Source: a virus. Taken from it: a stretch of DNA of 32,477 bases. Below the pieces are notes generated by a model. The model did no database searches and was not told the origin of the DNA. It saw only the letters and a program-made list of their open reading frames with translations. The stretch is from the IMG/VR virus record IMGVR_UViG_3300025543_000116, positions 1 to 32,477 of that record. One strand, given 5' to 3'. The position numbers and the translations under genes were made by a program. Below are positions 1 through 30,992 of this stretch, piece by piece (position 1 is the first letter of the stretch; every line of letters begins with the position of its first letter).

Positions 1-135
1 TAGCCTGCATCTGCTGCTGACCCTGCTCCATCTGCTGCTGGCCCTGCTGCTCCATCTGGGCGATCATCTGGCGAGCTTCGGGCGGCATGTCGTCGCCCTC
101 CTCTTCAGATTCGCGCATCTCAGGGGGCAGAAGCA
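1..135. repeat. Terminal overlap, left copy (matches 32343-32477)
   Basis: Bases 1-135 align without gaps to 32343-32477 with seven mismatches, at 28, 36, 38, 41, 47, 50 and 83. Both copies lie in the portal gene and keep its frame. Five differences are silent; the other two change Glu to Gln and Gln to Leu in a Gln-rich stretch. The simplest reading is a circular assembly whose ends overlap, with sequence variants in the low-complexity part. Confidence 0.9.
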
Positions 136-1819
136 TCTTCAGGCGGTTCGCGATCTTATCCGCACCAACGAAGTCCATGTGCTCCATCAGAACGTCACCG
201 ATGTATGGCGCTGAGTCAGGAATGGCTCGCATGATTTCTGTCAGCGTCTGGCGGGTTTCTTCGCGCTGGCTTGAGAACGACGGGCCGGATCTCACGTCCA
301 CGTCATAGATGCCCATGCTGAGGTCGTACATTCTTTCGCCGTCTGGCGATTGATTCGGACCCTGGCTAGAGCCCATCAAAAGAGCAACGCTCTCGGCGCG
401 GTCCTCGCCCAAGATGCGGACGGTCTGGCGGTCCTTGTAAACTGCGGGAATGATTTCGACCAGGCACTGCCCAGCGTAACGGATCGCGCGATTGAGATTG
501 TCGATGAAGTGGAAGGTGGACACGTCGCTTTCGCGCTGCCGAGCGTTGATGGCAACGCCTGACGTTTCGTTACTCCGGGCGCCGAGGCTGCTGTCATAGA
601 TGCCGATGATTGACTTCATATCGTCGGCGGAGTTCATCGCCTCTTGCAAAGCTCCAGCCGGCACACCTGCGAAGGGTTGGCGCTGGGGCATCGGCGTGCC
701 TTGCGTGTGCATCAAATAGGGATGGCTGCGCGTGTTGGCGGTCTGCCAGGCTGCCTCCATGCCTTTGGGGATTGCGCCCTCTTGCATGATCCACGGCGCG
801 CGTGGTGCCAGGGCGACCAACTCAGTTGACGCTGTGCGCCAGAAGTTGAACATGCTCTGGCTGTCTTTGGCCGATCTGATCAACGACCGGAAATGACGCC
901 TGCCGTCAAGCATCACTTCCTCACCCCACACGGGGCAGATCGGGATGGTTGAGCCAGGCCAGGTTTCTTCTTCGAGAACTTCTGCGCCGTTGATCTTGCG
1001 GTGGATTACGGTGAAGGCATCGACCTCGCGCTCCCTGGTGATCTCAATGCCTTGCAGTTCAAGGCCGAATTTCACCTCGTCAGTGAGTTCGTCTTCTCGC
1101 AGGGTCATGCCGGTCGAGAGTTGGAGTAGCTTGCGCTTGGTGCTTTCCCGCAGCCAGTAGTCAGCCACCCGGACGCGGGTGTCGTCCAGCCATGCGTTCG
1201 AGCTGTAATCGTTGCCCTCAAAGCTGATCGGATCAGCGTCTGGGTAGAGGTTCTTGAACTCTTCCTGCGATAAGAAATCGGAAACGAACGCATAGCCCCA
1301 GTCGGATGCGTCAAAGGCCGTGCTGGCCGGATCCCAGTGAACCATCAGCGGGTTGGGGATGCGATGGATTTTCGCCTCAAGGTCGAACGAGTCCTTGTGA
1401 GTGAAATCAATCCCGATCTGGAAGAAACCGAAGCCCCCAGACGCGCTATGGTCAATCGCCGTATCATATGCAATGTCAGCGTTGCTCCGGCGCTCAATCG
1501 ACCGAACCAGGCCGTTGATGACCTCCGCCGTCTCGACGTCCGCGCCGTTATCCACCGGGTGGACGGTGATCGCTGGCTTGTTTAGCCGGGAATCGTTCAC
1601 GACCTGTCGGATAAATGACGGCAAGCGGTTGATTGTCAGGCAGGGACGGCCCTCTTCACGGCGCGTGTTTTTGATTTCTTCCGGCCACTGATCGTCAAGC
1701 CGTGAGAACTCGATGTCGTCGCGGGCGGCGACTCGGGCATCAGAGGTGCCGTCGTCGGACTCCTGGAAACGCTCAAGTGCGCCGCGCATCACATCATCGG
1801 TCGTGTCTGTCTTTTTCAT
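1..1819 (-). CDS. Portal protein, P22-like (N-terminal part; continues at 32011-32477)
   Basis: This is the dodecameric portal, the DNA channel at the packaging vertex. I translated the minus strand by hand from ATG at 1817-1819, preceded by GGAG five bases upstream, and it stays open to base 1. The start is Lys/Asp-rich (MKKTDTTDDVM), followed by stretches typical of P22-type portals such as DDQWPEEIKNTRREEGRPCL and RLPSFIRQVVNDSR near residues 30-70. The frame continues at the other end of the window across the 135-bp overlap, giving about 716 residues in all, close to P22 gp1 (725). TerS and TerL lie upstream and scaffold and coat downstream, the P22 order. The frame is certain; the family is assigned from recognised sequence and gene order. 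Confidence 0.9.
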   Translation of the reverse strand, partial: MKKTDTTDDVMRGALERFQESDDGTSDARVAARDDIEFSRLDDQWPEEIKNTRREEGRPCLTINRLPSFIRQVVNDSRLNKPAITVHPVDNGADVETAEVINGLVRSIERRSNADIAYDTAIDHSASGGFGFFQIGIDFTHKDSFDLEAKIHRIPNPLMVHWDPASTAFDASDWGYAFVSDFLSQEEFKNLYPDADPISFEGNDYSSNAWLDDTRVRVADYWLRESTKRKLLQLSTGMTLREDELTDEVKFGLELQGIEITREREVDAFTVIHRKINGAEVLEEETWPGSTIPICPVWGEEVMLDGRRHFRSLIRSAKDSQSMFNFWRTASTELVALAPRAPWIMQEGAIPKGMEAAWQTANTRSHPYLMHTQGTPMPQRQPFAGVPAGALQEAMNSADDMKSIIGIYDSSLGARSNETSGVAINARQRESDVSTFHFIDNLNRAIRYAGQCLVEIIPAVYKDRQTVRILGEDRAESVALLMGSSQGPNQSPDGERMYDLSMGIYDVDVRSGPSFSSQREETRQTLTEIMRAIPDSAPYIGDVLMEHMDFVGADKIANRLKMLLPPEMRESEEEGDDMPPEARQMIAQMEQQGQQQMEQGQQQMQA

Positions 1820-1841
1820 TCCAACTCCAGGGGGCCGGCCA

Positions 1842-1898
1842 TTATGCAGCGCGGCCTGGTGCCGACCCGCCAATTCCCAAGCTGATACCTATGAACAT
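1842..1898 (-). CDS. Possible 18-residue peptide between spike base and portal genes
   Basis: An ATG overlaps the stop of the spike-base gene (TAATG) and opens an 18-codon frame, MFIGISLGIGGSAPGRAA, ending 22 bases before the portal start. The coupling and the hydrophobic, Gly-rich composition are the only evidence. It could equally be an untranslated spacer. Confidence 0.3.
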   Translation of the reverse strand: MFIGISLGIGGSAPGRAA

Positions 1899-2146
1899 TA
1901 GTAAAGCGCCACGATGCCGGTTGCGGTCGTCCCGGTGCTCATAACCAGGGTGGGGCGCACCGGGAGCACGCTCCCAGCCTGAACCGTGGTGAACAGGACC
2001 GCTGTGGCGTCTCCGAACTTGAGATTCAGATTACCTGCCCCTGCGACATAAATGGCCCGTGGGGGCTGTCCATTAAGCAGGAGGCTGGTGGTGTCACTCT
2101 TGGTGACTGCGACGGCCTTCTGGGACGGATCGCTTCGTTCACTCAT
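1898..2146 (-). CDS. Head spike base-like protein (RcGTA Rcc01079 type)
   Basis: This 82-residue protein has a short charged start and then a beta-rich pattern: SDTTSLLLNGQPPRAIYVAG, NLNLKF, VQAGSVLPVRPTLVMSTGTT and ATGIVALY. That pattern recalls the phage spike-base family, which includes Rcc01079 at the base of the head spikes of the Rhodobacter capsulatus gene transfer agent. From this I infer a small capsid-surface protein. GGAG seven bases before the ATG supports the start, which overlaps the preceding 32-codon gene by 8 bases. Its place between TerL and portal fits a head protein. The family call rests on remembered sequence pattern, not a search. Confidence 0.65.
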   Translation of the reverse strand: MSERSDPSQKAVAVTKSDTTSLLLNGQPPRAIYVAGAGNLNLKFGDATAVLFTTVQAGSVLPVRPTLVMSTGTTATGIVALY

Positions 2147-2237
2147 TCGCTTTCTCCGGTGGGCACTGGCAATCTTTGCATCTGCCGGTGGTGGGTGTGA
2201 TTGGGTTGCCGTTGGGACAGCGTTCTAGCTCATCCAT
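2139..2237 (-). CDS. Small Cys-rich protein overlapping TerL and spike-base genes
   Basis: This is a 32-residue frame starting at ATG 2235-2237 inside the end of the TerL gene, with AGGAG seven bases upstream. It ends 8 bases into the next gene. Four cysteines (positions 7, 20, 23 and 25) in CPNG...GRCKDCQC resemble a minimal zinc-binding knuckle. Small Cys-rich frames after TerL occur in other phages, but I know no function. The ribosome site and fit between two coupled genes make it more likely real than chance. Confidence 0.55.
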   Translation of the reverse strand: MDELERCPNGNPITPTTGRCKDCQCPPEKANE

Positions 2238-23364: not shown

Positions 23365-24234
23365 TTAATTTACTCCCCAGCCAGGTCCGCCGTATGTCAT
23401 GCCGCCAGCCATCGCCGCAGTGCCGAGGAGATCATAGAGACCCTGCCTGTTGGCGGCGTTGTTGGCTTGGTTCTGATTGAATGCGTTCATCTGGCCCTGA
23501 TAGTTGCCGTAAATTGCATCGGCAATCGGCGCAGCACCCACGCTATAATTTGACTGGCCCTGGAATGCTGGGTTCTGAATCTGCTGGCCTGACGCCAGCG
23601 CCGCTAGTTCGTTCAGTGGCTGATTGCGCTGTGCCATCAGATCATTCCTGGCCTGATTATAGGCCGCCGATTCAAGGCTATACTGCTGCGCCTGTTGGGC
23701 CATAGCAGCCTGTTGGGCGGCAAGGCCGAAGTCGGTTTGACCGCGATTAAACTCGTCGGTTGCGGCAGCATACGCCGCCGAACCAGCATCAAGCCCCTGG
23801 TTTGACAGGCGCGTCATCATGGCGTCACGCTCTCGATCTGCGCGGGGCTGATTGCGGGCAACTAAGGCGTCGTAGCTGTTCTGCCACGCCCCTTGACCTG
23901 CCTGTGGTGCCGGGCCAACGCTTGAGAAGTCAACGGGGCTGGAGAACTGATCCGCAACCACCCCAAGCTGGTTATTTGCAATCTGCCCGTACTGCAACGA
24001 TGCCGCGTTCTGCTGATCGAGCATGGCCTGCTGCGCTGGCGCAAGCGTCGTGTTGACGGCCCTGTCTGGGCTTCCAATCTCGCCGGTATAGAACAGGGAG
24101 CCATAGGGCGTGTTCTGCCCAATCTGGTTCATCAACGCGCTTTCGCGCACGGCTGCGGAGTTCGCCGCAGCCTGCGCATTCGCCGTTGCGACGGGATCCG
24201 GTGGTGCGGGTGCGCTGTCGTTACTCTTGCCCAT
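23365..24234 (-). CDS. Podovirus internal virion protein, gp7-like position
   Basis: The 289-residue protein is rich in Gln, Asn and Ala. NQIGQNTPYGSLFYTGEIG and TTLAPAQQAMLDQQNAASLQ form a motif that I recognise from many podoviruses (PYGSL...T.L.P.QQ.L.DQQ), where the gene sits among DNA-ejection proteins. The C-terminus is Gly/Met-rich and could contact membranes (GTAAMAGGMTYGGPGWG). A role in DNA delivery is inferred. It overlaps the end of the GNAT gene by 14 bases. Confidence 0.7.
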   Translation of the reverse strand: MGKSNDSAPAPPDPVATANAQAAANSAAVRESALMNQIGQNTPYGSLFYTGEIGSPDRAVNTTLAPAQQAMLDQQNAASLQYGQIANNQLGVVADQFSSPVDFSSVGPAPQAGQGAWQNSYDALVARNQPRADRERDAMMTRLSNQGLDAGSAAYAAATDEFNRGQTDFGLAAQQAAMAQQAQQYSLESAAYNQARNDLMAQRNQPLNELAALASGQQIQNPAFQGQSNYSVGAAPIADAIYGNYQGQMNAFNQNQANNAANRQGLYDLLGTAAMAGGMTYGGPGWGVN

Positions 24235-24664
24235 GATCTGCTCCGTAGTTTTTGATGAAATCAGGCTTTAGCATCCGCATGATTACGGCGTGCCTTTTGA
24301 ACCCAAACTGATGCGCAAGCACGGCCTCTTGCGTAAACCCGACGTGCCTGTTGACCTTCAGCGCCTTCTCGTTATCGAACGCCGTGGCCGTCCAGACCTT
24401 AAAGCAGTTCAATTGATAAAAGGGATACGCCAAAAGACCGAAAATGATTGAACGACGCGCCCACATCGGGCTGACCGCCGCCATGCTTAACTGAATTGTT
24501 CCGAATTGCTCTTGATAGTCGTGATAAACCATTCCGGCAATTAGCCGGTCATTGCCAACGCCAATCGCCGCCACAGGCCCGCCAAATCCACGGTCCCCAA
24601 CGTCAGGGATATGCGCCGCCACCCAGTTAGCAACATCCGCGTCATGGCCGTAGATAAGGTTCAC
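24221..24664 (-). CDS. GNAT-like acetyltransferase in the structural region
   Basis: The 147 residues start at GTG 24662-24664, which overlaps the upstream stop (GTGA). ATG 24841 would run 60 codons into that gene. Features are RLIAGMVYHDYQEQFGTIQL, the helix RSIIFGLLAYPFYQLNC, and KALKVNRHVGFTQEAVLAHQ, the usual end of GNAT domains. The acetyl-CoA loop is less clear than in the GNAT at 4381-5175. Such genes occur between tail genes in many podoviruses with unknown target. Confidence 0.75.
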   Translation of the reverse strand: MNLIYGHDADVANWVAAHIPDVGDRGFGGPVAAIGVGNDRLIAGMVYHDYQEQFGTIQLSMAAVSPMWARRSIIFGLLAYPFYQLNCFKVWTATAFDNEKALKVNRHVGFTQEAVLAHQFGFKRHAVIMRMLKPDFIKNYGADHGQE

Positions 24665-26178
24665 AGAGGCCCGCCGGGGACATACAGCCAGTTGGTCGCA
24701 AGCCATGAAGGCTGGTTGACTCCCGTTGAAATTCGGATGCGAATGGATGCTGCGCGACCGACGCCACGGATGCCACGCCAGCCACGGTAAGTCTGTGAAG
24801 CCGAACCCCACAGGCCGACGCCCCACTTTGCAACGCCCCACAAACCCGCCGGCTCTGGGTACGACGCAGCGGTGGCGGACGGGGTGGGAATGCTATAGTC
24901 CAGGTTCACGTCAATGCTGACTGATGGCGATCCCTCGCTTTGGAATATCGGCTCAACAAGCGTGAAGCGTTTATTCGTGCCAGGCGAGCGGAAATGGTTG
25001 AACGCCTGGAGGGCGTCAGCATTGATGTCTGAGCCGGCATCGCTGGACCCGGAATCAAACTTATAAACAACGCCGTCGTCCATGCCCCCGAAATACGCCT
25101 CGTCGTTCATCAGCCCCCAGCAGGCAGCATTGATGCCGGTAAACCGGCACGGCGCGCGCGTTATTGTGTTGAACACATATTGATAGGCTTCGGTTGCTGT
25201 GCTGGGGACGTTGAAGATCAGCATCGTGCCCTTGGGATAGATGAATGGTTGCCATCCGAACAGCGACCCACCATCCCGCACGGCGTCGTTCACCGCTTTG
25301 TTGATTTGCTGCGAAATGGATACCGCTTCTGCTTGTGATCGGTCTGCAAGCAGGATCTGTGACGCGGCAACGAAACCGTCCTGGGTCACCATAATCAGGT
25401 CCGCTCCGCTCTTGATCATGCAACGCCGTCCGACCGGCTTGCCGATGCGAAACACCCCGACTAGACTCCACGTAGTAGCTGAGTTTGGATCAGTGCCCTG
25501 ATAAACAATGGCCTCGCCTTCACTCGTGAGGAATACCGCAACGTCGTCCTGTCCGTCACCGGCATCGACACTCCAGGTGCCCATCGCCATCAGGTAGCCG
25601 CCCAGCTTACTCACAGCACCCAGCGGAAATTCCACTGCTGTCCCAGATATAGAATTGACGGCAAGATACCACGCCGACAGGCTGTTTTTCTCACCAAACC
25701 AGAGGCGGCGCTGGTGGTTGTTCACCCACTCAAGGTTAGCCATTGTCGGGCCTGACGCGCCCGAGGTGGCCCACGACGACCCATCAAAGGTCAGTGGCGT
25801 GTCCTGGCCGTTGACTGCAAACAGAAAATGCCCGCCCGATGTGCTGATTTGGGTGGACTGAAATTTGGTGTTGGACAGACCTGACACAACGGCAGCGCCG
25901 ACAGCGCCTCCGCCTGACACGTCAAAGATCGAAGAGCCATTGCCCGCGAACAGTTTGCCGACGCCAGTGGTAGGCACATACTCAATCAGGCTGTTTACTT
26001 CCCCGGACATTCCCGTGGCGTAGCTCGTGTATCCCTTCCGAACGGTCACTTTGTCCGTTGACGGGAAGAAATTGTCCAGAATGACGGCATTTTCGGCAGG
26101 CATGTCAGCAAGCGCGTTTCTGGTGTCCCAGCCGCCCACTGGGGGCGGGAACGACGCTGTGCGGGCGGGTGCTCTCAT
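24661..26178 (-). CDS. Tail hub/head-closure protein, P22 gp10-like
   Basis: The 505-residue protein begins RAPARTASFPPPVGGWDTRN, then AVILDNFFPSTDKVTVRKGY, and has many repeated beta-strand segments with Trp/Gly turns (DGVVYKFDSGSS, GLWGVAKWGVGLWGSASQ). This suits the propeller-like DNA-stabilisation or tail-hub proteins of P22 type (gp10, 472 residues). These sit below the portal adaptor and close the filled head. It is in the tail-gene block. The match is by pattern and position, so a different beta-propeller tail protein is possible. Confidence 0.65.
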   Translation of the reverse strand: MRAPARTASFPPPVGGWDTRNALADMPAENAVILDNFFPSTDKVTVRKGYTSYATGMSGEVNSLIEYVPTTGVGKLFAGNGSSIFDVSGGGAVGAAVVSGLSNTKFQSTQISTSGGHFLFAVNGQDTPLTFDGSSWATSGASGPTMANLEWVNNHQRRLWFGEKNSLSAWYLAVNSISGTAVEFPLGAVSKLGGYLMAMGTWSVDAGDGQDDVAVFLTSEGEAIVYQGTDPNSATTWSLVGVFRIGKPVGRRCMIKSGADLIMVTQDGFVAASQILLADRSQAEAVSISQQINKAVNDAVRDGGSLFGWQPFIYPKGTMLIFNVPSTATEAYQYVFNTITRAPCRFTGINAACWGLMNDEAYFGGMDDGVVYKFDSGSSDAGSDINADALQAFNHFRSPGTNKRFTLVEPIFQSEGSPSVSIDVNLDYSIPTPSATAASYPEPAGLWGVAKWGVGLWGSASQTYRGWRGIRGVGRAASIRIRISTGVNQPSWLATNWLYVPGGPL

Positions 26179-28274
26179 TGGCTTGCCTCTGCTTCGCTGT
26201 TGCCCAAAAGGCCGTAACCCAGAGTGAGGCCGCCAAGGCCGGACGCTAGAAGGTCGCGGCTGTTGATGTTGCGGGGGTCGAATTTGGCGAAACGGGAGCG
26301 GATTTGGTTCGCGTTGTCGTCAAATATGACGTAGTGGCGAGCGTCTTGCGTCCCTGTCATCCCCGGCAGCTTGACGCCACCAAACCCTTGCCTATTGCTG
26401 AACACAGAAGCGTCCATATCAATGCTGTCAAACCCAGCCTTCTTGAAAATGTCGGCAATCACCGCACCGGGAGATGCCATTTTTCCTGAAAAATCGTCAT
26501 AAACATCGTTAATGTTGGATCGTAAAATGTTGTCAAAATCTGACGCCGAAATGCCGCCGTCAATGGCATCATCCATCAACTTGCCTAAAACATCATCGCG
26601 AGTGAATTGGTCCACTTGCCATTCATCAAACGCCTCTTGTGTCGCGCGTAGCAAGTCCACAAATGGCCCATCTTCGCCAACAATATCTTCGCCATCGGCG
26701 CTGTATTTTATGTTGTAATCAAAAAACGTCTCACCATCGCCGCCAACCTTTACAGGATTATTCATTGCAAGCCGAACGGGGTAAACTGTGCCGTCGTTTT
26801 CAATCCCAAGGCGCTCGCGGGCTACCGCGTCCAGGGCTTCATCAATCTGGCCTTGGGAAAGGTCCGCAATATCGTCAACGTCAACATCCCGGTATTGCCA
26901 ATAATCCAGAATTGTATCGTCATCAAAGCTATCTGCCGCCAACTCTATCTCACGCTGGATGCGTTGCGTAATGTCTGGGCCTCCATGATCTGCATAGTTT
27001 GCGTTCACGTCGTCAATACTGTTGGTGAAGTAATGGTTCGCGCCGTAATGGCCTTCGGGTGTGCTGTAGGTATTCCGAAATTCAGTGATGTTGCGAGGCG
27101 AGCCGTGCCATGCGTCAACGGGAAACGTCTGGTTTGCCCGCGCCATGCGGCCCACCTCATCCATGGGCACGTCATCAGCTACCCGTGCGGCGTCGTCTGC
27201 GCGGGCGGGGTCGAAGCCAAATTCGTGAATGCTGTCGCCGTTTGTGTAAATATCTCTTGCGGGGACTTTTCGTTCTATAATTGAATAATCTCCACGGAGG
27301 GTGCCTTCTCCATGATCTATTGCATAGTTCCGATTCACCGTGACCCAATCACCCGCAGATATTTCTGCCCCACTTGCGTCGGAAGGCACCGCCCGATAAA
27401 TGGAAACCATCTCATCAGGGTTGCCCTTGAGGCTGTTTAGAATTTCAACGGTTTCTTGGTCCATAGCCGGATTGCCTGTTCCATAATACTGAACAGCATT
27501 CGGGGAATAAACATCATCTGGATAAACCGCTCCGCCACCCGTCAAGTCGTGCGCTGGCGCACCGCTGTCCCGCATAGGAGGACGGTGCATCCCCGCGTAA
27601 TCATCAACTGATTCCCCCGCCCTGTTTGCGTTTGCTTCGGCTCTCAGCGCAGCTATTCGGTCCCGCTTTGCCATCCGGCTCACCTCGTCCATGGGCAGAT
27701 CATCAGCTACTCGTGCGGCGTCGTCGGCTGCGCCTGAAAGTGCGTCAGCCACGCCTCCCGCTCTGCCCAACGACCCGCGCTCGTCGGCAAGAAACCTTGC
27801 AACACTCGGATTATTTATAACGTCTTCAGCGACGTTTACGCCTGCCCGGACGAACGGCTTGGCTAATGCCCCGACCCCAAGGACATCTGCCACACCCAAG
27901 GCAGTGTTAAAAACATCCATTCCGCCGCTGTTGCCGTATTGAATCTCATCAAGCGACATTCCAGGGGCCATTGCGACCAGATTGCTAACAATCTCCGCAG
28001 TTGGTTTGGGGTCCGGTGTAGTGCCCCTTTGTTCATTTGCAAGCGCATCCCACGGGAGCTGCGGGACAAGTGTGTTTTCGGGCAGATACTGCGCCAGAAA
28101 TGCTCCTATCCGGTCGGCTAATGGATCATCAGTCGCAGGGACGAGGGTGGGCTGCTGCAAGACGCCTGGACGCGTGTCATCAGCAGCCATGCGGCGCATA
28201 GGACCACTAGGCGGACGGTTCAACGCCTGCGCCCATACGCTGCTGGGTGATAACCGATCAGATAAATAACCCAT
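26175..28274 (-). CDS. Structural-region protein with two ADP-ribosyltransferase-like domains
   Basis: The protein has 699 residues. Domain 1 (about 226-356) has AVQYYGTGNPAMDQ, VSIYRAVPSDASGAEISAGD, WVTVNRNYAIDHGEG and NGDSIHEFGFD, a pattern seen in phage and polyvalent ART-like domains. Domain 2 (about 386-662) has AWHGSPRNITEF, GHYGANHYFTNS, VYPVRLAMNNPVKV and ARHYVIFDDNANQIRS, typical of the ART-PolyVal family. Each is preceded by a near-identical 20-residue linker. The gene lies among head and tail genes, so the protein is probably in the virion and may be injected like T4 Alt. Activity and target are inferred. Confidence 0.7.
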   Translation of the reverse strand: MGYLSDRLSPSSVWAQALNRPPSGPMRRMAADDTRPGVLQQPTLVPATDDPLADRIGAFLAQYLPENTLVPQLPWDALANEQRGTTPDPKPTAEIVSNLVAMAPGMSLDEIQYGNSGGMDVFNTALGVADVLGVGALAKPFVRAGVNVAEDVINNPSVARFLADERGSLGRAGGVADALSGAADDAARVADDLPMDEVSRMAKRDRIAALRAEANANRAGESVDDYAGMHRPPMRDSGAPAHDLTGGGAVYPDDVYSPNAVQYYGTGNPAMDQETVEILNSLKGNPDEMVSIYRAVPSDASGAEISAGDWVTVNRNYAIDHGEGTLRGDYSIIERKVPARDIYTNGDSIHEFGFDPARADDAARVADDVPMDEVGRMARANQTFPVDAWHGSPRNITEFRNTYSTPEGHYGANHYFTNSIDDVNANYADHGGPDITQRIQREIELAADSFDDDTILDYWQYRDVDVDDIADLSQGQIDEALDAVARERLGIENDGTVYPVRLAMNNPVKVGGDGETFFDYNIKYSADGEDIVGEDGPFVDLLRATQEAFDEWQVDQFTRDDVLGKLMDDAIDGGISASDFDNILRSNINDVYDDFSGKMASPGAVIADIFKKAGFDSIDMDASVFSNRQGFGGVKLPGMTGTQDARHYVIFDDNANQIRSRFAKFDPRNINSRDLLASGLGGLTLGYGLLGNSEAEASQ
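27141..27200 (-). repeat. Linker repeat, copy 2
   Basis: This encodes residues 359-378 of the double-ART protein (ADDAARVADDVPMDEVGRMA), directly before the second ART-like domain. It matches the copy at 27669-27728 in 18 of 20 residues, and the DNA is also nearly the same, so the duplication is fairly recent. Confidence 0.9.
27669..27728 (-). repeat. Linker repeat, copy 1
   Basis: This encodes residues 183-202 (ADDAARVADDLPMDEVSRMA), ahead of the first ART-like domain and 528 bases from copy 2. The unit may be a short docking or sorting segment or the trace of a domain insertion. Confidence 0.9.
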
Positions 28275-29011
28275 TAAAGGCGTCCTGCTGGGCCGGGTCG
28301 ATCTGGCCCGCCTAAGTTTGATCCACTGCGTCCAGGCCGTCCACCGAAGCCGCCGCCAGTTGCGCCACTGCCGCCACCGACACCGGATCCGCTGCGCCCG
28401 CTGTAACCGCCGCCCTTGCCTTGACGGGAGAGACCTACGGGCGCACCGCCAAAGTTGAAAGATGCGGACGACAGGGCTTCTGGCCTTCCCATAAAGCCCT
28501 GCAACGACTGGGGCGACCTGGTGGGGCTAGGCTGTGCTTGAGCTGCCATATCAGACCGCCCACTAGCGCCTGCGTCGTCGGCGGCGTTGAAGGCTGCGCT
28601 GGCCTGCCGTGCAGCCATCTGTTTGTCGAACGCTTCTTTCGTCACGCTAACGTCGTGAAACGGAGAAAGTGTTCTCGCAACGGCTTCGAAAAAACCCATT
28701 GGCTCTAAGTCCAAATCCTTTCCAAACTTAGTGCCCATGAGTTCGCGTTGAGCGTTTTCCCTCGAAAGGCTCTGGGCAGCGTCGATGGCTGTGGCTCCTA
28801 TGCTCAGGCCCGGAACAGCAGCGCCACCGAGGGCTGCGCCAAACTGCGCCAAGCCACTGTCGAGAAGTGCGCCGCTATTCGCAATCTTGCCAGTGCTCGT
28901 CTGCGCGCTGGGTCGATTGAGGCCGGCTGGTGAAAACCCGTCAAAGCCGCGCTCGGCGCGCGTGGTGGCAGGACCGGCGCTCCAAAGCAGCTTGTCTGAT
29001 AGTGTGCCCAT
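28274..29011 (-). CDS. Gly/Ser-rich virion-region protein
   Basis: The protein has 245 residues. The first 110 are soluble and helical, with GALLDSGLAQFGAALGGAAV and LEPMGFFEAVARTLSPFHDV. The last 60 are almost only Gly, Ser, Arg and Pro, a flexible basic tail. It lies between the gp4-like adaptor and the double-ART protein, with TAATG coupling to the latter, so it may be a virion protein or help pack the ART protein. No family is recognised. Confidence 0.6.
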   Translation of the reverse strand: MGTLSDKLLWSAGPATTRAERGFDGFSPAGLNRPSAQTSTGKIANSGALLDSGLAQFGAALGGAAVPGLSIGATAIDAAQSLSRENAQRELMGTKFGKDLDLEPMGFFEAVARTLSPFHDVSVTKEAFDKQMAARQASAAFNAADDAGASGRSDMAAQAQPSPTRSPQSLQGFMGRPEALSSASFNFGGAPVGLSRQGKGGGYSGRSGSGVGGGSGATGGGFGGRPGRSGSNLGGPDRPGPAGRL

Positions 29012-29721
29012 TAGAGCACTGTGATGTTGGAGCCGGACGTCACCGGGGTTCCGGTGAAGTGTCGCCCGCCGCCGAAGATGTCAGCCGCCACCAGGATGCC
29101 CGGCGAGGCTTGATCGTTCCGCGTCAGGTCGTCAGCGTAGTCAGTCATCTCCTTATAGGCCACGTCGTTCGGCAAGCCCTCATCCGATAGGAATGTGAAC
29201 TTCGTTGCCTTGACCAGAAGCTCTTCGTCAATAACACCAACATCAGTGTCAGCAGCCATTGCGGTCTGGCCCGTCCCTCCAGAGCTTTTGCACCAGTGAG
29301 TGCTGATGTACTCAAATGCCAGTGCCTTCCCTGCGCCTGGCTCCGGGAGAATTAGAATGTCATCACCGCGATAGGTAAACTTGTTATCGCCGGTGTAGTT
29401 GAATGCCTTCAAGCCCTGCCACTCGACAGCGCCCACCGGACCAGAGACCAGATCATAGTCGCTGCGGTTCCAGAAGGTTTCAGGAATAAACCTGTCGAAA
29501 TCTGCCGGCAGGATTGATGTCTGGGTAGATCCCCCAACCGACGTGAATGTTCGCTCTTTGCGGAGAACTTGCCACGCAACGCCCTTCATCAAAGCCCAGC
29601 CAGACTTGTTCACATATCGAAGCAGCTTCTGGGCATCTGTGGCTGAATTGCCGGCGACTGTAGACGGACGACTAATGCCAACCTCGTCGGCAACGGCTGT
29701 GCAAATTGTCAAAAGGGTCAT
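29011..29721 (-). CDS. Head-tail adaptor, P22 gp4-like
   Basis: The 236 residues from ATG 29719-29721 start TLLTICTAVADEVGISRPST and continue ATDAQKLLRYVNKSGWALMK. They then have ILPADFDRFIPETFWNRSD, WQGLKAFNYTGDNKFTYRGD and LAFEYISTHWC. This helical start followed by a beta part is the layout of podovirus adaptor proteins that attach beneath the portal, like P22 gp4. GGAGG four bases before this ATG decides the start; the longer form would begin in the terminator. It is the first gene after coat, as in P22. Confidence 0.7.
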   Translation of the reverse strand: MTLLTICTAVADEVGISRPSTVAGNSATDAQKLLRYVNKSGWALMKGVAWQVLRKERTFTSVGGSTQTSILPADFDRFIPETFWNRSDYDLVSGPVGAVEWQGLKAFNYTGDNKFTYRGDDILILPEPGAGKALAFEYISTHWCKSSGGTGQTAMAADTDVGVIDEELLVKATKFTFLSDEGLPNDVAYKEMTDYADDLTRNDQASPGILVAADIFGGGRHFTGTPVTSGSNITVL

Positions 29722-29730
29722 GCAGCCTCC

Positions 29731-29763
29731 AAAAAAAGAGGGGTGGAGCCGAAGCCCCACCCC
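29731..29763 (-). terminator. Strong intrinsic terminator after the coat gene
   Basis: The minus strand has a 10-bp stem (29754-29763 with 29740-29749, one G-U pair) closed by a TTCG tetraloop and followed by TCTTTTTTT (T run 29731-29737). The T run touches the GGAGG of the next gene. It should end many transcripts after coat while letting some continue to tail genes. Confidence 0.92.
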
Positions 29764-29771
29764 GGTAGTGA

Positions 29772-30992
29772 TTAGTGAAGGCCGAGGCGACACGCAAGCT
29801 GCGGGCGCACGGTCTTGTAGCCGTAGAGGATGTCAAGCCTGCAAGGCATGGCATCGCTTGAGATGTCGTAATCTCGGACAAGGCGAACCGAAATTCCGTC
29901 AACGACTTCACGAGCCTTGAAGTCAACGCCCTGGGGCATAACCAGATCGGCAGTTGCGAATGCAAATGCGTCCTTGTGGTAACCCATGCCAACCGAATAG
30001 TCCGCACCGGAACCGATGGCGGTTGAGCCGTCCGATTCCAGTTTGAAGATTGCGGCGTTGTTGGCAGGCATAGCAGCCACGTTCTGGCGACCAGTCGTGG
30101 TGTACAGCGCGGGAGAGAAGGACAGAGTCGTTGCGCTGGTGCCGGTCGTTTCAGTCACAACAAAACGCTGCAATTCACCCGTGTCGGACTTGGTTTCCGG
30201 GTGGACGCGGTTGACACCAACAATCGTGAAGATGTCGCCCTTGTTCCATGTGCCGGCACCGGTATCAACGGTCAGGCTTGTGGAGCCCTGCGCAATGGTA
30301 CCGGCGTCATTCACCAGATAGTCGCCAGTGCCATCATCCGTGCCGGTCGTGTGGATCGGCCAGAGGGTGTTCTGGTAAACATGCTGAAAGCCCAAGAAGT
30401 TCGGGGCGACCATGCCTTCGCGGTAGTTCTTGCCAATCTTGCTCTGGTCGTTGAACTGGCCCTTGACCGCTTCAAGCAAGTCCACGTTGTACTGCGTGGG
30501 CATGTTGAGGCAACGCGGCGAAATGGGTGCCAGGCTGTCGGTCAGCTTCTTCTGTACCTGAAGGGCAAGGCTCGTGGTTGCGGTGGCACCTACGTCCGAA
30601 ATCTCGTTGTAGATGTCTTTGTACATTGACAGCGCATCGGCTTCGATGGCCGCAGCAAGAACCGAAGTGGCAGGTTCAATGATGCGCTTGCTGAAGTCGT
30701 CGAGGCTCAGGGTCAGGTCAACGGACGTGAAGGACAAATCAACGCCCTTCTGCGTCGAAACCTGGAGCGTCTCGCTGGTTTCAACGGTGTCCTGGGCACT
30801 CATGGTTGCGCCGCTGCGGACGACATACTCATTAGGCAGCCGGATCTTCAGGCTGTCACCAATCCGAGCGCCGGACTTTGCAAAGCTGTCGTCATACTGA
30901 CGGTCAATCGTGCCGATGAAGTTAAGTTTCTGATGCAGCACACGCGCGACTTCACGCGTAACTGCGGTCGGGGTGAGGATAGTATTAGCCAT
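29772..30992 (-). CDS. Major capsid protein, P22 coat (gp5)-like
   Basis: The protein has 406 residues (P22 gp5 has 430). It begins MANTILTPTAVTREVARVLH, followed by IDRQYDDSFAKSGARIGDSL, IRLPNEYVVRSG and VDLTLSLDDFSKRIIEPATS. This start is typical of the P22 coat family of HK97-fold shell proteins. It is placed after scaffold as in P22. A weak ribosome site precedes ATG 30990-30992, and a strong terminator follows, as expected for the most abundant product. Confidence 0.95.
   Translation of the reverse strand: MANTILTPTAVTREVARVLHQKLNFIGTIDRQYDDSFAKSGARIGDSLKIRLPNEYVVRSGATMSAQDTVETSETLQVSTQKGVDLSFTSVDLTLSLDDFSKRIIEPATSVLAAAIEADALSMYKDIYNEISDVGATATTSLALQVQKKLTDSLAPISPRCLNMPTQYNVDLLEAVKGQFNDQSKIGKNYREGMVAPNFLGFQHVYQNTLWPIHTTGTDDGTGDYLVNDAGTIAQGSTSLTVDTGAGTWNKGDIFTIVGVNRVHPETKSDTGELQRFVVTETTGTSATTLSFSPALYTTTGRQNVAAMPANNAAIFKLESDGSTAIGSGADYSVGMGYHKDAFAFATADLVMPQGVDFKAREVVDGISVRLVRDYDISSDAMPCRLDILYGYKTVRPQLACRLGLH

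Follow-up and report, generated by a model that had tools for sequence, protein, structure and literature searches.

A candidate two-warhead effector built from two ADP-ribosyltransferase-like cassettes in the neck operon of a podophage

Why should one phage protein carry the same 20-residue segment twice, each time ahead of a different ADP-ribosyltransferase (ART)-like domain? The question is raised by a protein of 699 amino acids (aa) encoded by virus record IMGVR_UViG_3300025543_000116, of which we analyzed positions 1 to 32,477; "the window" denotes this whole stretch of 32,477 nucleotides. An earlier, sequence-only reading took the repeat to be a docking or delivery segment behind which effector domains are joined. 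Judging from sequence comparison with other phages, the protein is instead made of two mobile cassettes joined at these segments, which we call leaders. As the main reading, we propose with a probability of roughly 0.6 that it is a two-warhead effector of a P22-necked podophage, which would be made late, packaged and ejected, and would ADP-ribosylate two kinds of host target. Its parts are the following:

26175..28274, minus strand: open reading frame (ORF) of the two-cassette ART protein, 699 aa, ATG to TGA, with start/stop overlaps with both neighbors
27729..28274, minus strand: N-terminal region, residues 1-182, with an Ala/Gly-rich hydrophobic stretch (TALGVADVLGVGALAKPFV); varies among relatives
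27669..27728, minus strand: leader copy 1, residues 183-202, ADDAARVADDLPMDEVSRMA; the same motif precedes domain 1 in viral contig L113
27201..27701, minus strand: cassette 1, residues 192-358; DNA homology to L113, 77% identity
27204..27602, minus strand: domain 1, likely of an unnamed ART-like family, residues 225-357, the C-terminal part of PHROG 2579; H230, R294, T312, E351
27141..27200, minus strand: leader copy 2, residues 359-378, ADDAARVADDVPMDEVGRMA; predicted helix 373-383 directly before beta-1 (VDAWHGS)
26178..27182, minus strand: cassette 2, residue 365 to the end; DNA homology to L175 (73%) and L178 (63%)
26286..27122, minus strand: domain 2, predicted ART-PolyVal type, residues 385-663; H390, Y415, D616
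26178..26285, minus strand: C-terminal tail, residues 664-699, following IRSRFA: KFDPRNINSRDLLASGLGGLTLGYGLLG; Gly-rich, hydrophobic and common to most proteins of the lineage

The modular organization proposed earlier is borne out by other phages, in which each unit of leader plus domain is found alone. The leader and domain 1 form the end of an L113 protein with a different N-terminus, and the leader and domain 2 occur without domain 1 in L175 and L178, again behind different N-termini. The borders of cassette homology coincide with the starts of the two leaders, and cassette 1 DNA is 77% identical to that of L113, compared with only 57% for the tubular tail B (tubeB) genes of the two phages. 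These single units and homology borders therefore indicate two cassettes joined at their leaders, and the segment appears duplicated because cassettes are exchanged there. Within leader copy 1, L113 is the nearest match to the 3' part; the adjoining upstream stretch (DAARVADD) occurs in both window copies. More broadly, 75 of 126 pairs that have leader and downstream DNA in common begin their homology at -30 to +15 nt relative to the leader; for further pairs of leader ORFs, it is mainly the upstream side that matches. Any domain shuffling places borders between domains, so the leader need not promote recombination itself, and alignments can also stop at the leader because its codons are conserved. 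With these caveats, we tentatively suggest, as a possibility that we would not yet favor, that the leader and the paired IRSRFAxFDP...NLLA Gly-rich tail form a conserved exchange joint of lytic podophages, at which recombination would swap or string effector cassettes of different catalytic class, including the unnamed ART family of domain 1, into host-ejected proteins.

The repeat itself is real and exactly as first described: the copies are identical at 18 of 20 residues, and their DNA (27142-27200 versus 27670-27728) is 88% identical over 59 nt. A chance origin was ruled out by 30 shuffles, none near the real score (BLOSUM62 window score 91 versus shuffle maxima of 26-40). The wording that the segment precedes each ART needs a refinement: copy 2 abuts beta-1 of its domain, whereas copy 1 lies about 22 residues ahead of domain 1.

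Motif scans of viral contigs also ruled out that the repeat is peculiar to this protein. A DNA pattern for MDxASRMxRAxExGF matched 88 stretches, and in the 78 leader ORFs that we read, the motif (consensus LPMDEASRMARAxEMGFD..YHGT) nearly always stood directly before a YHGT-type strand, the first catalytic motif of ART-PolyVal domains. Bacterial and archaeal genomes (257 billion bases) yielded only 4 stretches with the same pattern; all 4 come from metagenome bins, and in most of them an ART of the same kind follows the leader. When the C-terminal motif IRSRFAxFDP served as bait in a further scan, 69 distinct ORFs were returned, most of which have this leader or a variant helix (RAxxMGF) before an HGT strand. 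Because the motif precedes ARTs in many viral ORFs and forms a helix before beta-1 in the structural model, the leader is the N-terminal leader helix of a large, widespread phage ART lineage and not a device special to this protein. The motif is not printed in the literature searched.

These results bear on the proposal that the repeat docks or delivers whichever effector sits behind it into virion or host. The leader is conserved, precedes many different ARTs as well as the unrelated domain 1 (in the window and L113) and is found much more often in viral contigs than in bacterial genomes, all of which speaks for docking. However, it is modeled as an ordinary helix of the ART fold, related lineages have different leaders at the corresponding position (GLGLPxNNTAMDRAKAMGFD, MLQQGYEPDWYHGT), and nearly all domain 1 relatives lack it, including the one in L103 at the same genomic site. 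We thus regard a docking role as very improbable; the segment does occur before many ARTs in other phages, but a special role in docking or delivery is not supported. The variable Ala/Gly-rich N-terminus and the C-terminal tail, whose NLLA and Gly-rich hydrophobic stretch is conserved in 81% of 111 tails, are offered, only as a suggestion, as better candidates for common delivery than the leader.

Several other leaders were encountered. L109 (2352-4847) and L110 (3061-5553) each encode a protein with two copies of another ART leader (YELAHEVAQRNAALPVEQGG) that no domain separates; the protein also carries a zincin-like HELQH motif, domain 1 and one ART. LPD23 matched in full in the related L109 protein and weakly in L103. 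In L113 (1554-2432), GMFAGSGAKTAD before the leader resembles the start of LPD23, so leader and LPD23 may be related. L102 (Tunturiibacter phage Tunturi_5) has ARTs with a third leader type, FKAWFGNSKVVDxxGxPLxVYHGT, which occurs twice in one protein annotated as NUDIX hydrolase.

The claim that two different ART-like domains share the chain stood up to analysis, by family for domain 2 and by predicted fold and conserved active-site-type residues. By sequence and model, domain 2 is a divergent ART-PolyVal domain. The window copy matched PF18760 with E 2.4e-5 and 25.6 bits, under the Pfam cut-off of 31.2 bits, while 33 of 40 aligned relatives matched ART-PolyVal (best 1.9e-23). In this alignment, H390 is conserved in 37 of 40 rows, position 415 is Y in 23 and F or W in 14, and D616 is conserved in 24; these residues give an H/Y/D arrangement on strands 1, 2 and 5, in which D616 is the candidate third residue, assigned by position alone. 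The H-Y pattern that Iyer et al. 2017 (PMC5512222) give for ART-PolyVal is matched by H390 and Y415. The AF2 model (pLDDT 84.5) adopts an ART fold, with a chain of the cyanophage A4 pre-ejectosome (PDB 9k3a) as the best solved match (Z 11.0 over 179 residues), followed by NatT (Z 7.1), tankyrase (6.8), the anti-CRISPR 6kyf (6.1) and diphtheria toxin (6.0). The protein in 6kyf is AcrIF11, an ART. A sequence comparison of domain 2 with solved structures gave marginal matches only (diphtheria toxin, E 0.024). A Sipho_Gp37 match at residues 415-513 was set aside as weak, under cut-off and overlapping the ART. As a side observation, relatives of domain 2 (27-30%) in L027, L056, L058, L064 and L083 lie beside P22-type coat genes 55-66% identical to that of the window.

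The same fold list bears on whether one or both domains merely hydrolyze or deplete NAD+, with no macromolecular target. NatT, the second-best match to domain 2 and part of a toxin-antitoxin pair, speaks for such an activity. However, transferases (tankyrase, diphtheria toxin, 6kyf) stand in the same list, so the fold does not discriminate a NADase from a transferase; we consider a pure NADase distinctly unlikely.

Domain 1 is likely an ART, by sequence and model. Pfam and NCBIfam contained no family for it, and no ART family there matched convincingly. All 35 aligned relatives matched only PHROG 2579 ("ParB C-terminal domain"), of which the window covers the last 150 positions; the fold predicted here is that of an ART and not of ParB, and the label presumably comes from fusions to ParB-like proteins. 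H230, D254, Y256, R294, P297, G308, A318, V337, E351 and G353 are invariant in the 35 rows, and T312 is present in 33 (one S, one A), giving a putative R/S-T/E pattern. The core of the model reached a pLDDT of about 97. Foldseek returned no significant solved match (best E 0.2), with ART toxins ranking first. Among the 49 VIA matches shown, all but one or two were ART-superfamily or ART-like (best Z 5.1): tRNA 2'-phosphotransferases (which are ART-superfamily enzymes), CNFy, Vis, Rhs toxins, Arr, cholera toxin, PARPs and ParT. Comparison of the sequence with solved structures gave nothing credible, and the matching viral models are members of the same uncharacterized family. This family is widespread, free-standing in Vibrio T4-like phages and mycobacteriophages and also inside large multidomain proteins. 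Predicted folds thus gave ART-type matches for both domains, as the earlier reading had anticipated, although weakly for domain 1. That the two domains are diverged duplicates was rejected, as a profile-profile comparison of the two families aligned only the leader.

The gene lies in the structural region, as first proposed, surrounded by coat, scaffold, adaptor and tubular tail B genes. It overlaps both adjacent genes, the upstream stop with its own start (TAATG) and the downstream start with its own stop (ATGA). Two unrelated ART-type domains in a single chain encoded within a neck/tail operon agree with the layout of polyvalent proteins, in which one polypeptide near virion genes combines several unlike domains. 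Besides a P22-type scaffold, its neighbors are:

29772..30992, minus strand: P22-type coat protein, in the operon
29011..29793, minus strand: SU10-type adaptor, in the operon
28274..29011, minus strand: upstream gene, 245 aa, no assigned function; overlaps the ART-protein start
24661..26178, minus strand: adjacent downstream gene, encoding a P22 gp10-like protein (tubular tail B) homologous to gp15 of phiGT1 and labeled "amidase" in PHROGs
24221..24841, minus strand: GNAT-like protein, at the position of phiGT1 gp16 (annotated head assembly protein)

In Sulfitobacter phage phiGT1, the homologue of the downstream protein bears the annotation tubular tail B, which is the P22 gp10-like protein; the PHROG 5107 "amidase" label on 24661-26178 looks wrong. 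The portal gene was absent from the listed ORFs (window 1-2200); it may run off the record end, because open-ended ORFs were not listed. Among named phage isolates, the window had no close DNA relative, and no anti-phage defense family was matched.

In other phages, this genomic site either holds ART cassettes, at or near it, or is empty. In the isolates examined, tubular tail B comes immediately after the adaptor or tubular tail A gene (e.g. phiGT1), except in MW202483, where one endonuclease gene follows instead. ART proteins occupy the site in the window, in L178 (leader plus domain 2 between adaptor and tubeB) and in L103 (three ART-type domains, namely domain 1 and two of the ART-PolyVal kind, flanked by tail adaptor and stabilization protein). 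The L113 cassette lies just after tubeB, and in L028 the site is empty and a leader-ART follows tubeB. In Octadecabacter Antarctic DB virus 2 (OANV2; L312 2752-4233), gp6 consists of leader plus ART and overlaps the tail tubular gene; gp6 is not named as such in the OANV2 paper.

This context frames the likeliest mechanism, by analogy with known systems: packaging and ejection followed by ADP-ribosylation in the host. The homology borders show assembly from two exchangeable cassettes joined at their leaders, each consisting of a leader "LPMDEASRMARA..." and an ART domain; leader copy 2 would be the N-terminal helix of its ART fold, and copy 1 a relic of the joining. The place in the operon and the overlapping start and stop codons indicate translational coupling and point to late synthesis together with the neck and tail proteins. 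The polyvalent-protein theme and the cyanophage ejectosome precedent make packaging in the capsid and ejection along with the DNA the most likely course. In the host, as conserved residues and predicted fold imply, it would use NAD+ to ADP-ribosylate two kinds of target, domain 1 via an R-T-E type site and domain 2 via an H-Y-D type site.

Some observations weigh against this mechanism. The solved-structure matches of domain 1 are weak, and its case rests on agreement across ART subfamilies; D616 is conserved only in the 24 of 40 rows given above; position 647 is H here and E in some domain 2 family members. Free domain 1 relatives sit among non-structural genes of T4-like phages, namely among replication genes in Vibrio T4-like phages; packaging is therefore not a general property of domain 1. 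The last point, together with operon position being the sole support for packaging, favors a late but unpackaged protein acting inside the infected cell, e.g. on host proteins or against superinfecting phages. The tight coupling between neck genes, the repeated occurrence at this site in P22-type phages, the ART-like domain in the solved pre-ejectosome and the polyvalent-protein precedent (PMC5512222) argue against such a role; we judge it unlikely. The missing acidic residue at position 647 would in turn suit a protein in which one domain is a dead remnant and the other alone is active. However, domain 1 retains its key positions and domain 2 retains H390 and Y415, and both cassettes persist, diverged, in separate phages, which suggests selection; a dead domain accordingly has a small chance of being the right explanation.

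Comparison with known systems places the two-warhead effector among several precedents. ARTs in polyvalent phage proteins, even twelve per chain, are known, and ART-PolyVal proteins (PF18760; Tox-ART-HYD2-like) carry one to many ART copies each next to virion genes (PMC5512222). Domain 2 would join them by its relatives' profile matches, motif and fold, but is paired here with a second, unrelated ART type and itself falls under the Pfam cut-off; the leader is not described in the passages of PMC5512222 consulted. The idea that phage ARTs are packaged is already in the literature (PMC9503650). T4 Alt, ModA and ModB are R-S-E ARTs, and domain 1 has a similar R-(S/T)-E type pattern. Like Alt, which enters the host from the virion in which it is packaged, the window protein is proposed, from genes and models, to be packaged and injected. 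The differences are that two ART types share one chain, that the phage is a podophage and that neither Pfam nor NCBIfam yielded a named ART family similar to domain 1. The A4 pre-ejectosome chain is a virion-internal podophage protein with a YHGT-type ART-like domain, but its sequence similarity to domain 2 is marginal and it has 1,717 aa, compared with a 699-aa protein before tubeB here. The 9k3a chain is most likely ORF27 of Anabaena phage A-4L (NC_024358), in which YHGT lies at residue 1425, inside the range matched in the fold search; by analogy, it would be the nearest evidence for such a domain carried inside a podophage virion. OANV2 gp6 (URC15508.1), from a cultured P22-necked sea-ice podovirus, has leader, ART and C-terminal tail as in the window protein; it differs in having one ART only, with a ParB-like stretch ahead (by eye), and is annotated as hypothetical.

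Three things are new in this analysis: that the leader marks the border of a cassette, that two ART classes are paired behind it, and that domain 1 belongs to a family as yet unnamed. Leader and tail provide a sequence handle for phage ART effectors that profile searches miss, and the results point to a candidate new ART family now labeled "ParB C-terminal". They also show effector recombination by cassette in phages, and, with OANV2 in culture, packaging can be put to the test. Host RNA polymerase or defense systems could be the targets of ART effectors that are delivered at entry.

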